Source: Nitrososphaerota archaeon
Lineage (GTDB): Archaea; Thermoproteota; Nitrososphaeria; Nitrososphaerales; Nitrosopumilaceae
DNA: 42,793 nucleotides
Assembly (NCBI GenBank): GCA_028867275.1
Contig: JAGWGU010000010.1
Location: 1 to 42,793, forward strand
Direction: 5' to 3'
The translations under genes were made by a program, and so were the position numbers. Each line of letters opens with the position of its first letter. Within the stretch, counting starts at the first letter, position 1. This document shows, piece after piece, positions 20,297-24,309 of the stretch. The notes under the pieces are model-generated. The model saw nothing but the letters and a program-made list of their open reading frames with translations. It was not told where the DNA came from and did not search any database.

Positions 20297-20304
20297 TAAA
20301 TTCT
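20297..20304. repeat. Target site duplication, left copy
   Basis: TAAATTCT lies directly outside the left terminal inverted repeat. The same eight bases lie directly outside the right one at 22935-22942. An 8-bp duplication is the length made by IS6-family insertion. Confidence 0.85.
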
Positions 20305-20365
20305 ACTTCTGTGCAGAAAACGGGGTTTAGCCTCTAATTGTTCTCCCTGTTCAATTTCGGGGTTT
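20305..20365 (+). repeat. Left terminal inverted repeat (61 bp)
   Basis: It begins ACTTCTGTGCAGAAAACGGG and is identical over all 61 positions to the reverse complement of 22874-22934. It is much longer than the 14-30 bp ends I know for ordinary IS6 elements. Confidence 0.93.
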
Positions 20366-20382
20366 CAGGAGTTCCGATATTT

Positions 20383-20517
20383 TTGATATTGATATCATTT
20401 ATGGTACTTTCTGGATACGCATTTTTTCATTCAATTAAGATGAAATGGAGTATATTTGCAACAATCATGTTATCTTTGCCATTCACATTACTTATTGTAG
20501 TATTGATAACATTATAA
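20383..20517 (+). CDS. Tiny hydrophobic two-TM passenger protein
   Basis: This is a 44-residue reading frame from TTG 20383 (or 38 residues from ATG 20401) just inside the left inverted repeat. It consists of two hydrophobic stretches separated by a short basic turn (HSIKMKWS), giving a hairpin membrane protein. It precedes the 117-residue membrane protein by 39 bp. There is no recognisable family and it could be fortuitous, but it would be the third membrane protein in the element. Confidence 0.35.
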   Translation: MILISFMVLSGYAFFHSIKMKWSIFATIMLSLPFTLLIVVLITL

Positions 20518-20556
20518 CAATCACATGTTACTATCAATAGGAGGACTGAATGGTAA

Positions 20557-20910
20557 ATGGTAGATCTGATTCAACTGGATCCACGAGATATACTTCAGGC
20601 TAATGTAACGATAATAGCTGGAATATTGGTACTGTTAACAATTTCTGGTGTTTTAGAAGCAAGATTGACTAAGAAATTATGGGAAGAGTTACGTGGATTA
20701 ATTGGAATGTCGCCAATATTTTTTGCATCCTCGGTAGTTCTTCTATTATCTCCTTCATTTCTACCCATTACAAACGTTGTAGCGGTAATGACTCTCTCTA
20801 AACTTACACTAGCATGTGGTTTAGGATACATAACAGTGTGTATAGGATATGTAATGATTATCTCAAAGCCAAAAGATGATGGTAAAAAATCTGAAGATGA
20901 AATAAGTTAA
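20557..20910 (+). CDS. Passenger membrane protein (3 TM) in transposon
   Basis: This 117-residue protein has three hydrophobic segments (about residues 15-33, 50-68 and 80-103), a basic loop (EARLTKKLWEELRG) and a charged C-terminal tail. I do not recognise it. AGGAGG (20539-20544) lies 12 bases upstream of this ATG. A closer out-of-frame ATG at 20550 opens only a 17-codon frame. Its stop overlaps tail-to-tail the stop of the ribbon-helix-helix gene by 3 bases. Its presence within the inverted repeats makes it cargo or an accessory gene of the element. Confidence 0.65.
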   Translation: MVDLIQLDPRDILQANVTIIAGILVLLTISGVLEARLTKKLWEELRGLIGMSPIFFASSVVLLLSPSFLPITNVVAVMTLSKLTLACGLGYITVCIGYVMIISKPKDDGKKSEDEIS

Positions 20911-21047
20911 TTCTTCCTTCTCAAATATTCGCTTAGTATTACTCTAATAGTTTCAGGTACAGTTTCAAGCAATCTCTCTTTACGTTCTTTCTCTAAGACC
21001 TTGACCATCTCATCGGGTACAGATACCATGTACTTTTTCATTGCCAT
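20907..21047 (-). CDS. Ribbon-helix-helix (CopG-like) DNA-binding protein
   Basis: This 46-residue protein has the classic ribbon-helix-helix order: an N-terminal beta strand (KKYMVSVPDEM), helix 1 (VKVLEKERKERLL), a turn (ETVPE) and helix 2 (TIRVILSEYLRR). Such proteins bind DNA as dimers through the strand and are common autoregulators. It is transcribed away from the transposase. A TATA-like AATAAATATT (about 21071-21080, this strand) lies about 29 bases before the ATG, flanked by inverted repeats that are good operator candidates. It probably represses itself and the transposase, limiting transposition. The function is inferred. Confidence 0.78.
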   Translation of the reverse strand: MAMKKYMVSVPDEMVKVLEKERKERLLETVPETIRVILSEYLRRKN

Positions 21048-21059
21048 GTTACCATTAGA

Positions 21060-21116
21060 TACCAATAGGTAATATTTATTAATACCTATTGGTATATCTA
21101 TTGGTAGGTATTGGTA
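21060..21116. promoter_or_regulatory. Divergent promoter/operator of the transposon
   Basis: TACCAATAGGTA (21060-21071) and its exact reverse complement TACCTATTGGTA (21083-21094) flank the TATA-like box of the ribbon-helix-helix gene. The core ATTGGTA recurs at 21088-21094, 21100-21106 and 21110-21116, i.e. at 10-12 bp steps, one helical turn apart. The transposase TATA-like GTATATCTA (21092-21100) lies among these repeats. A ribbon-helix-helix array bound here would shut both promoters. Confidence 0.72.
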
Positions 21117-21118
21117 TA

Positions 21119-22276
21119 ATGGTCATAAACAGAAAACAAATCCAAACAAGAGAACTAAAGGCACTAACAATAGTCGGTCAATCAGACCAAATCAAAAGAA
21201 TCAATGCAGTAACTTACAAGGTAAAATCACAATCCTCTGATAATTGGTATGATGTAATACACGAATACAAGCATGGTTGGAATTGTTCTTGTCCTGATCA
21301 TACTTTCAGACACGTTGAATGTAAGCACATTCAAGCAGTCTACATATCAAAGGAATTACGCCATAAGATAGTAAATAATTCAGATGTAAAGGAAATTGAA
21401 TCTGACAAGCTATCCTGTAAATGTGGTTCTGTGAATATCATCAAGATAGGAATAAGACACAACAAGTCAGGAAATATTCAGAGATTCAAGTGTAAGGAAT
21501 GCAATCACAAGTGGTCTGACAATCTAGGCTTTGCTTACAACAAGGTAAACTCAAAGATAATCACAATGGCATTAGACCTATACTTCAAAGGAGTGTCACT
21601 AAGAAAAGTAAAAGAACACATCCAACTATTTCACGGAACAGATGTTAGTCCAAGTTCTATATTAAACTGGATTCACAAGTTTGGCGAAGTGGTTTCACCT
21701 TTTGTAGATTCTCTAGTTCCAAAGGAAGTTTCAGGTGTTTATCACGTAGATGAGATGATGGTTCATGTAAGAAAGGAAGAGACTGCAAAAGGTCACTACC
21801 AATGGCTATGGAATATGATGGACAATACCACAAGATTTTGGATTAGCAGTAAAGTATCTCAGAGAAGAGAGGTTTCTGATGCAAAGGCAGTATTCCAAGA
21901 AGCCAAAGACAAGATGCCAAAACCATTGGCAATAGTGCATGACGGTTTACAGTCGTATAATGATGCCTTTACAGATGTATTCTATACCAAGTTTGGCAAG
22001 CCTGTAAAGAATGTCAGGTCGGTATCCGTCAGAAAACAGGGATTAAACCAAAAGGTAGAGAGGTTGAATGGTATTTTCAGAGATAGAGAGGTTGTAATGA
22101 GAGGCATGGATCACAAAGAATCTGCACAGAAGATAATAGATGCTTATCGAATCCATTACAATTTCATAAGAGATCATAGCGGTATAGGTAAAACACCTGC
22201 GGAACAAGCTGGGATTAATCTTGAACTAGGTGAAAATAAGATTGAGAGTTTAATCAAACTTGCTTCTAAACATTAA
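21119..22276 (+). CDS. SWIM-zinc-finger DDE transposase (IS6-like)
   Basis: This protein catalyses cut and strand transfer at the element's ends. Residues ~50-75 hold a SWIM zinc finger (CSCPDHTFRHVECKH, CxCx(n)CxH). Residues ~98-125 hold a second Cys ribbon (CKCG...CKECNHKW), followed by a helix-turn-helix-like region (YFKGVSLRKVKEHI). The DDE/RNase H core shows Asp in YHVDEMMVH, Asp in IVHDGLQSY and Glu in QKVERLNGIFRDREV, the IS6/IS240 pattern. The 8-bp target duplication agrees. A TTG at 21089 lies inside the operator repeats; ATG 21119 is preferred, about 24 bases after a TATA-like box (leaderless). No frameshift or internal stop. Confidence 0.9.
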   Translation: MVINRKQIQTRELKALTIVGQSDQIKRINAVTYKVKSQSSDNWYDVIHEYKHGWNCSCPDHTFRHVECKHIQAVYISKELRHKIVNNSDVKEIESDKLSCKCGSVNIIKIGIRHNKSGNIQRFKCKECNHKWSDNLGFAYNKVNSKIITMALDLYFKGVSLRKVKEHIQLFHGTDVSPSSILNWIHKFGEVVSPFVDSLVPKEVSGVYHVDEMMVHVRKEETAKGHYQWLWNMMDNTTRFWISSKVSQRREVSDAKAVFQEAKDKMPKPLAIVHDGLQSYNDAFTDVFYTKFGKPVKNVRSVSVRKQGLNQKVERLNGIFRDREVVMRGMDHKESAQKIIDAYRIHYNFIRDHSGIGKTPAEQAGINLELGENKIESLIKLASKH

Positions 22277-22821
22277 TTCATTTCTACACTATCGAGCATA
22301 AGATAGCCTTTTTCAAAATGACCCTGCATATGATAAAAATATCCGTTACCGTTAGGATCTTCATATTCCAAGTTCAGTCCAAAATGACAAATATTGAATG
22401 CTAATGCTTGAGTATAATGTAGTTTTTCATAGAAAATGTCTATAGAATATTTTTCATTAGGTGCAAGATCAGGTAACTCTTTTCCTTCCAAAGCATAAAT
22501 TTTCTCATGTGTATCTTTTGGTTTTAATGAAATGAAAGAAGTTTGTTTTATTTTCTTTGCTGGTAAAGTACCGCTATTTGTAAAATGAAATAACACCTTA
22601 TCAGGTTGCAATGAGTAAACAGGTTCATGTATTATACTTCCATCAGGGGCTTTTCTAATGGAATCTCCTATTACAGTTCTTGCCAAAACTGGTCGTATTT
22701 TTACATCTAAATCTTTTCGTAAGAGACTATTAGATTCTCCCATTCTCATCCATGTCACTATTGCAATAGCAATGGTACTAAGAACAAGTAAAATTTCAAC
22801 AATGGTGTTACTTTCTCCCAT
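22273..22821 (-). CDS. Passenger membrane-anchored protein in transposon
   Basis: This 182-residue protein has one N-terminal transmembrane helix (about residues 7-26) followed by ~150 residues of beta-rich soluble sequence (VLFHFTNSGTLPAKKIKQTSFISL... LEYEDPNGNGYFYHMQGHF). It resembles the small membrane-anchored proteins of unknown function sometimes seen as mobile-element cargo; I cannot name a family. GGAGAG lies nine bases before the ATG, and a TATA-like ACTTATCATT about 29 bases before. Its stop overlaps the transposase stop by 4 bp, tail to tail, and its 5' end is 52 bp from the right inverted repeat. Confidence 0.72.
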   Translation of the reverse strand: MGESNTIVEILLVLSTIAIAIVTWMRMGESNSLLRKDLDVKIRPVLARTVIGDSIRKAPDGSIIHEPVYSLQPDKVLFHFTNSGTLPAKKIKQTSFISLKPKDTHEKIYALEGKELPDLAPNEKYSIDIFYEKLHYTQALAFNICHFGLNLEYEDPNGNGYFYHMQGHFEKGYLMLDSVEMN

Positions 22822-22873
22822 GTCTTACTCTCCAAACATTAACAATGATAAGTTTTCAGATGATCTCTTAAAC

Positions 22874-22934
22874 AAACCCCGAAATTGAACAGGGAGAACA
22901 ATTAGAGGCTAAACCCCGTTTTCTGCACAGAAGT
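22874..22934 (-). repeat. Right terminal inverted repeat (61 bp)
   Basis: It ends ...CCCCGTTTTCTGCACAGAAGT and is the exact reverse complement of 20305-20365. Confidence 0.93.
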
Positions 22935-22942
22935 TAAATTCT
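22935..22942. repeat. Target site duplication, right copy
   Basis: TAAATTCT is identical to 20297-20304. Removing the element plus one copy restores a continuous intergenic sequence leading into the thrC promoter. Confidence 0.85.
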
Positions 22943-22977
22943 TTAGATTTAAATACGAACCAACTAAATTTTGCATA

Positions 22978-24309
22978 ATGCAGTCACAGGCATATCTAAA
23001 ATGCATAGATCCAGCATGTGGACTACAGTATCCTGTAACTGATACTAGAATTGAATGCGAAAAGGGTCACTTGCTTGATGTAAAATATGATTTTACTCCA
23101 TCTTCCTCATTAAAAGAAGTATTTTACAAACGCAGAAATCACTCAAACAACATTTTCAATGAAAGTGGAGTGTGGCGTTTTCGTGAACTGCTGAACTTTT
23201 GTCAGATAGATACTGAAGACCTTGATCAATGTTCAAAATATTTAGTTTCATTAGATGGTGCAGAGGGCAGACTCTCTAAACCATATCACATGTCTCGAGT
23301 TTCACAATATGTTGGATTACAAAATCTGTGGCTCCAACCGGAAGGATACAACCCAAGTGGTTCCTTCAAAGACAATGGTATGACTACAGCTGTGACACAT
23401 GCAAAACTTGTTAAAATCAAAAAAATAATCTGTGCATCAACTGGAAATACCTCTGCCTCCGCTGCAATGTATGCTGCAAATGAAAACATAGACTGTGATG
23501 TGTATATACCTGCAGGAGAGGTTGCACCAGGAAAACTTAGCCAAGCATTTCAGTTTGGAGCTCAGGTGGTGGAAATTAAAGGAAATTTTGATGATGCATT
23601 GTCTGCATCCTTGAAACAAGCAGGACAGGCAGGTGGATATACCGTAAATTCTGTAAACCCATTTAGAATTGAGGGCCAAAAAACAATTGTTTTCAGAGCC
23701 TTGGAGTTTTTAGATTGGAATCCTCCGGACTGGATAGTCTATCCTGGAGGCGCGCTTGGAAACACATCAAGTTGTGGCAAGGCGCTTATGGAGTTGTACG
23801 AATGGGGATGGATTAAGAAGATTCCACGTCTTGCTGTTGTCAACTCTGAAGGTGCCAACACTTTATACAATTTGTACAATGGTAAGTTTGAAAATACTGA
23901 ACTGAGATGGAACAAGGGAAAATCCGATACTGCACTGATCAAGAGATATTATGAATATATGGATAAAAATCAGATCAGACCAAAAACCAAAGCCACTGCA
24001 ATCCAGATTGCAAAACCTGCCAATATTCTCAAGGGATTGCGAGCACTTGATTTTACAAATGGTGTTGTAACCCAGGTATCTGATGCCGAAATGCTGGATG
24101 GAATGGCACTTGTTGGTCTAAATGGATTTGACTGTGAGATGGCATCTGGTGCTGTTCCAGCAGGAGTGAAAAAATTGATTGGTGAGGGAATAATCAAAAA
24201 GGATGAAACTGTTGTTGGAATCCTGACAGGACGACAGAAAGATTCTAGCATTCCTGTTGATTATCACAAAAACCCACAAAACAAGTTTGCAATTCCACCT
24301 AGAACCTAG
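22978..24309 (+). CDS. thrC: Threonine synthase
   Basis: This PLP enzyme converts O-phosphohomoserine to threonine in the cytoplasm. The PLP lysine is Lys131 in NPSGSFKDNGMT, preceded by the typical YVGLQNLWLQPEGYNP. The phosphate-binding region ASTGNTSASAAMYAA follows. An N-terminal Cys-containing segment (CIDPACGLQYP) is common to archaeal and plant-type enzymes. A TATA-like TTTAAATAC (22947-22955) lies about 27 bases before the ATG, giving a leaderless start. The transposon's right end is only 13 bases upstream of that box, so any upstream regulatory site has been displaced. Confidence 0.93.
   Translation: MQSQAYLKCIDPACGLQYPVTDTRIECEKGHLLDVKYDFTPSSSLKEVFYKRRNHSNNIFNESGVWRFRELLNFCQIDTEDLDQCSKYLVSLDGAEGRLSKPYHMSRVSQYVGLQNLWLQPEGYNPSGSFKDNGMTTAVTHAKLVKIKKIICASTGNTSASAAMYAANENIDCDVYIPAGEVAPGKLSQAFQFGAQVVEIKGNFDDALSASLKQAGQAGGYTVNSVNPFRIEGQKTIVFRALEFLDWNPPDWIVYPGGALGNTSSCGKALMELYEWGWIKKIPRLAVVNSEGANTLYNLYNGKFENTELRWNKGKSDTALIKRYYEYMDKNQIRPKTKATAIQIAKPANILKGLRALDFTNGVVTQVSDAEMLDGMALVGLNGFDCEMASGAVPAGVKKLIGEGIIKKDETVVGILTGRQKDSSIPVDYHKNPQNKFAIPPRT

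Follow-up and report, generated by a model that had tools for sequence, protein, structure and literature searches.

A family of gene-carrying, IS6-related transposons of archaea that probably insert at a set distance before promoters

Contig JAGWGU010000010.1 of a Nitrososphaerota archaeon of the Nitrosopumilaceae (assembly GCA_028867275.1) holds a 2630-bp element at positions 20305–22934 (+ strand) of the 42,793-nucleotide stretch that we analyzed (hereafter, the window). The element encodes a transposase and several other proteins and lies beside the promoter of a host gene, which raises the question of what kind of transposon it is and how it came to be at that place. Comparison of sequences makes it likely that the element belongs to a family whose insertion is targeted to promoters. 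Its terminal inverted repeats of 61 bp (20305–20365 on the + strand and 22874–22934 on the − strand) match at 61/61 positions, with the similarity stopping immediately inside the arms, and the same eight bases, TAAATTCT, stand outside each end (20297–20304 and 22935–22942). A 67-nt repeat returned by a repeat search consists of the 61-bp arm plus part of this duplication, which is self-complementary. At least 10 congeners have a single TAAATTCT and no insert at the same intergenic position; the borders and the duplication are therefore true footprints of insertion, with chance excluded. Thus, the perfect repeats and the 8-bp target-site duplication (TSD) that a sequence-only reading of this DNA had described were borne out. 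The element has a short open reading frame (ORF) on one side and a threonine-synthase-like gene on the other.

The transposase gene (21119–22276, + strand; 385 aa) was intact, as that reading had also proposed. Its product has a SWIM-like CxC..CxH motif at residues 56–70 (C56xC58...C68KH70), a zinc ribbon at 100–128 (C100..C128), a helix-turn-helix (HTH) region at ~145–197, and a DDE domain whose catalytic residues, D211, D275, and E314, were invariant in 23 relatives and align with the D, D, and E of IS26, ISS1N, ISH15, and ISH17. Pfam SWIM was detected in 10 of these 23 relatives. Their DDE domains had their best match among IS6/IS26/IS240 enzymes in 23/23 cases, a group that includes the long zinc-finger clades h and i and the archaeal ISH and ISC elements; likewise, Pfam DDE_Tnp_IS240 was found in all 23, and the NCBIfam IS6 model (NF033587) matched every one (best E 2.7e-38). 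IS6 was also the best NCBIfam family for the window transposase, at 100.1 bits, which is below the 125-bit curated cut-off; the next family was IS1 (58.9 bits). Identity to IS26, ISS1N, ISH15, ISH17, and other references was 18–27% over the HTH-DDE region. Because the enzyme falls below the IS6 cut-off, has 385 aa rather than 211–250, and carries extra N-terminal zinc domains, its sequence marks it as an outlying relative of IS6 and not a plain member. Transposases of this kind have ~370–400 aa, with SWIM-like and zinc-ribbon domains. In a tree of DDE domains with known IS6 enzymes, the placement of the branch had weak support and was affected by long branches, and we do not claim a sister relationship. 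The closest named relatives came from Candidatus Nitrosotalea metagenome assemblies, and a search of PDB sequences gave chance matches only. A Mutator/IS256-type transposase was considered and rejected (IS256 model, 36/150 bits; only a partial match to Pfam Transposase_mut, at 139–226), as was a casposon, there being no Cas1 match among the element proteins.

Relatives of the element were numerous. In a survey of 105 full-length transposase relatives, inverted repeats with an exact 8-bp TSD were found around 60, as against 5 of 300 control positions put through the same procedure, and all five control cases scored below 30 bits. The sequence-only reading had suggested checking its boundaries against empty sites and other copies, and both outcomes favor them. 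Fifty elements passed stricter limits and were kept for counts of ends, sizes, and regulators; they measure 1.97–6.5 kb (median 3.2 kb), with a median inverted repeat of 61 bp. In 16 elements the arms were at least 97% identical. Transposase relatives occurred in 62/101 related genomes and in 120/400 genomes of the class (E ≤ 1e-40). They were also found in other classes of the phylum, where 10/14 transposase loci had a repeat with an exact duplication and GG..CTG tips, although some of these repeats were weak. Judged from these matches, the window element is one member of a family that extends beyond Nitrososphaeria. The suggestion of an undescribed IS6-derived type in Nitrososphaeria consequently stands in part: the transposon is intact, broadly IS6-derived, and of a type absent from the papers searched, whereas its enzyme is too divergent and too long for IS6 proper and its relatives are not confined to that class.

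The same genome holds a second intact element (L058; G000:C22:5773-11196), which is bounded by 61-bp ends of its own and has the TSD TAAAATAA; its cargo is a D12 adenine methylase and an HNH-domain protein. TSD-bounded copies were also observed in three IMG/VR contigs (L203, L206, and L208), which are possible vehicles for spread but could be misassigned host DNA. No transposase relatives were found in phage records, and plasmids yielded only IS6 enzymes of ~25% identity. One non-autonomous element (L230:2858-3801, fragment strand) has 944 bp, 50-bp ends, the TSD CAAAATGA, and only a 3' fragment of the transposase gene, an indication that mobilization in trans may require no more than the ends. 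Many 5'-truncated transposase remnants that keep only the last 75–90 codons were observed as well (L218-L235; e.g., L229:153-410, in contig C72 of the same genome). Their breakpoints cluster at ~codons 296–313, and N-terminal remnants were much rarer. At four further loci (L149, L152, L182, and L183), long ends of 92–100% identity were seen with no duplication found; these perhaps arose from intramolecular events.

The ends of these elements are organized differently from those of IS6. Where IS6 ends are described as measuring 15–20 bp, those of the family are ~60 bp long (50–107) and consist of repeated motifs, with at least two copies per end of roughly CTGTnnAAnnnTCGGGnnnT (CTGT..CGGG type). 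In the window element the outer copy (CTGT...CGGGGTTT) lies at 20309–20328 (+ strand) and 22911–22930 (− strand), and the inner copy, CTGTTCAATTTCGGGGTTT, at 20347–20365 (+ strand) and 22874–22892 (− strand). Inner copies were closer to the outer copy of their own element than to copies in other elements (P = 4e-9), indicating that motif and element co-vary. Among the 50 strict elements the motif spacing was 24–28 bp in 19 and 35–39 bp in 25, with none at 29–34 bp, so that there are two spacing classes about one helical turn apart. These features point to two putative transposase-binding sites per end. The TSD of 8 bp is that of IS6, and the outermost bases keep some IS6 traits (compare PMC6807381 and PMC7986276). 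The tips, GGTTCTGT, keep C5T6G7, with G7 in 97/100 ends as in IS6, and ~75% have GG at positions 1–2; the window element begins with AC and has CTGT at 5–8.

Outside the right end of the window element the order is TAAATTCT-TTAGA-TTTAAATA, where TTTAAATA (22948–22955, + strand) is the TATA box of the flanking gene and starts 13 bp from the element edge. The gene itself, which encodes a threonine-synthase-like pyridoxal phosphate enzyme (22978–24309, + strand; Pfam PALP, 1.4e-47), starts 43 bp from that edge. The same promoter is kept in the empty sites of congeners, and it therefore did not arrive with the element. L058, the other element of this genome, likewise lies 13 bp from a TATA box. 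Across the family, a TATA-like motif was found at outward offsets 13, 14, and 15 in 20, 7, and 7 flanks, respectively, and in 0–3 flanks at almost every other offset beyond the TSD. A strict TATA pattern was present at 21/60 elements, whereas intergenic positions drawn at random had it in 2.9% of cases (P = 1e-17). A two-sided mixture model, fitted without supervision by expectation-maximization to 45 non-redundant sites and with no TATA pattern supplied, recovered AA at 9–10 (the transcription factor B recognition element, BRE), YTTAWAW at 13–19 (the TATA box), and a start-codon signal at ~44. It scored 222, while the highest score among 40 controls was 129; the information in its best eight columns was 3.33 bits, and controls did not exceed 1.34. 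The elements showed no bias in orientation (11 and 12). Genes targeted in this way include radA, sufB, alaS, an aquaporin gene, and an Ssb-like gene.

The simplest account of these data is insertion at a fixed distance from a promoter bound by TBP and TFB; docking of the transposase on these factors is a more tentative idea, which we place a little short of an even chance. The main competing explanation accepts the family and attributes the offset to the DNA preference of the transposase itself, that is, to the sequence or bending of AT-rich, TATA-like DNA 5 bp past the cut, without contact to TBP/TFB. The signal is indeed a DNA motif, and the duplications have a weak symmetric preference, Y..WW..R. 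However, what was recovered is a BRE together with a TATA box and a start-codon register, TATA-like stretches outside promoters abound in AT-rich DNA without being the main target, and a TATA box on one side combined with both element orientations suits a docked factor. We regard this explanation as possible but, on the whole, doubtful. That insertion is random, and that only those cases persist which spare genes and promoters, would agree with the intergenic position of the elements, which precede housekeeping genes (sufB, alaS, and radA, for example). Such survivorship appears highly improbable given the 1–3 bp peak at offsets 13–15 with almost nothing at 16–48, the lack of this peak at random intergenic controls, and the reuse of identical 8 bp in the arrays described below. 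Least probable is that the window holds an ordinary IS6 insertion sequence, a one-off in this genome, that trapped neighboring genes by chance. While IS6 is the top-scoring family and the TSD and tips are IS6-like, the transposase scores below the IS6 cut-off, and dozens of relatives have long ends of repeated motifs, a regulator by the transposase, and variable cargo within TSD borders; the one-off reading is refuted by the family survey.

Several observations weigh against promoter-directed insertion by an IS6-related enzyme as set out here. In about one-third of the elements, a TATA box is not clearly recognizable where it would be expected. Insertions that damage genes could be purged by selection, but this alone would not yield a peak of 1–3 bases. 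Occupancy of the radA promoter (see below) may be due in part to vertical inheritance. AlphaFold models of the transposase, made from 6 and then 12 sequences, were poor in the catalytic core (predicted local distance difference test scores of 40 and 62), and a fold search of the PDB gave nothing significant, the best match being ISCth4 (E 0.12).

Based on these data, we propose that the level of the IS6-related DDE transposase is kept low by a divergently encoded ribbon-helix-helix (RHH) repressor, and that the transposase would bind the repeated motifs of the long terminal repeats, cut at the element ends, and attach these to the target at positions staggered by 8 bp. Insertion by the intasome would occur at a set position immediately before the archaeal BRE/TATA, most likely because the complex docks on TBP/TFB at the promoter or on the shape that these give to the DNA. 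As the fixed distance and the duplication leave the core promoter intact, an insertion would cost the host little, and unrelated cargo could ride along, comprising small membrane proteins in the window element and often putative anti-virus systems elsewhere.

Targeting of this kind has parallels in other elements. The Mutator-like TnGBS, ISLre2, and ISKra4 elements also have a DDE enzyme, lie a fixed distance upstream of promoters, and have symmetric ends that allow both orientations; they insert 15–17 bp upstream of sigma-A promoters, measured from the −35 box (PMC3942029). Their enzymes are of Mutator/IS256 type and their target is bacterial, whereas an IS6-type enzyme and an archaeal BRE/TATA at 13 bp are involved here. 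The yeast retrotransposon Ty3 integrates at a precise position beside a TBP-bound promoter, and its intasome contacts TBP in TFIIIB (PMC8632968). Archaeal TBP and TFB are relatives of the Ty3 docking factor. Ty3 uses a retrotransposon integrase at Pol III genes, and its factor contact is proven, while that proposed here is inferred. The present elements depart from these systems in enzyme family, domain of life, and promoter type.

The radA promoter was a hotspot of insertion, occupied in at least 20 genomes. Among the surveyed loci, the same base of this promoter was occupied by different elements or remnants in 15 genomes, and a separate search of relatives revealed ~10 clear and several decayed ends among ~24 readable radA promoters; empty radA sites also exist (e.g., L261). 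Tandem arrays were observed in which different elements are joined head to tail, with an identical 8-bp target sequence between neighbors. One (L139:5635-14948) has four copies of TGTTTCGA, another (L146:3836-11726) has three copies of TGTTTTAG, and a third (L248:8371-17897) has three copies of CTTTTGAA around two elements. Such arrays are the trace to be expected if insertion recurs at a fixed place beside a TATA box, and the newest member is presumably the one next to the promoter. In Nitrosopumilaceae radA promoters (e.g., L144:11279), a possible operator was noted in the form of a palindrome, GTACCGTA..ATACGGTA, just downstream of the TATA box.

Besides the transposase, the window element has four further ORFs, in contrast to IS6 members, which have inverted repeats of 14–20 bp and no passengers; ISDsp3 is the sole known IS6 member that carries one (PMC7986276). 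The regulator (20907–21047, − strand; 46 aa) is of the RHH (CopG) type and divergent from the transposase. It scores 20.5 bits with Pfam RHH_1, exactly the gathering score, and is strongly conserved among sister elements, in agreement with the repressor-like protein of the sequence-only reading. The region between the two genes (21048–21118) has repeated TACC(A/T)ATNGGTA half-sites and is a putative operator; on inspection, TACCNATTGGTA-like half-sites recur between regulator and transposase in the window element and in L052-L054. Beside the transposases of the 50 strict elements, an RHH regulator was found in 18 and an AbrB-like one in 17, mostly divergent and just upstream.

Up to three membrane proteins had been proposed as cargo, and the three ORFs concerned do have predicted transmembrane segments. 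These are a 59-aa ORF (20338–20517, + strand; two segments), whose start codon is uncertain and lies inside the inverted repeat, a 117-aa ORF (20557–20910, + strand; three segments), and a 182-aa ORF (22273–22821, − strand; one N-terminal segment). None of them matched a Pfam or NCBIfam family, and a PADLOC search with the 182-aa ORF gave no match. The 117-aa ORF has a homologue in the sister element L051, and the 59-aa ORF resembles, by eye and with no significant match, a 65-aa ORF of L051 in place and topology. A decayed homologue of the 182-aa ORF adjoins a transposase remnant in genome G034. Membrane proteins are, however, only one set of cargo among many, as cargo varies even where transposases are ~84% identical. 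Sister elements carry modification and restriction genes (ThaI endonuclease with a methylase, the D12 methylase with an HNH protein, an N6-methylase with a specificity subunit, and Eco57I-like and Mrr-like enzymes) as well as two AbiV proteins, AAA_15/AAA_21 ATPases, ParA, Fic, and DUF3800. By these annotations, the cargo of the family often appears to be related to defense against viruses.

Taken as a whole, the picture of a family of archaeal cargo transposons that spans the phylum and is directed by TBP/TFB to one set point ahead of core promoters as a DNA-transposon counterpart of Ty3, with radA as a preferred parking site where defense cargo accretes in tandem, is one that we put forward provisionally, as nearly but not quite an even proposition. 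The family is large and apparently undescribed. No paper was found on this element type, or on promoter-targeted transposition in archaea or by IS6-type elements, in the literature searched, which excluded ISfinder and preprints. Casposons and other integrated elements of Thaumarchaeota likewise carry cargo in the same hosts, and tandem casposons are known (PMC6563490); casposons use a Cas1 integrase, however, and not a DDE transposase. The same thaumarchaeal survey describes IS-like transposons of 1–2 genes and does not mention the type found in the window (PMC6563490).

With these data, the ammonia-oxidizing archaea, whose known insertion sequences have been described as one- or two-gene units, gain a widespread class of transposons that carry other genes, and the family reveals a route by which some of their anti-virus genes move. 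Because the offset from the promoter is fixed, the idea that transcription factors guide transposition in archaea can be put to a direct test. The host gene retains its own promoter after insertion, and with the core promoter spared in this way, such elements might serve as a natural tool for inserting DNA with little damage in organisms for which genetic tools are lacking. The arrays at the radA hotspot are ready places to look for defense genes.

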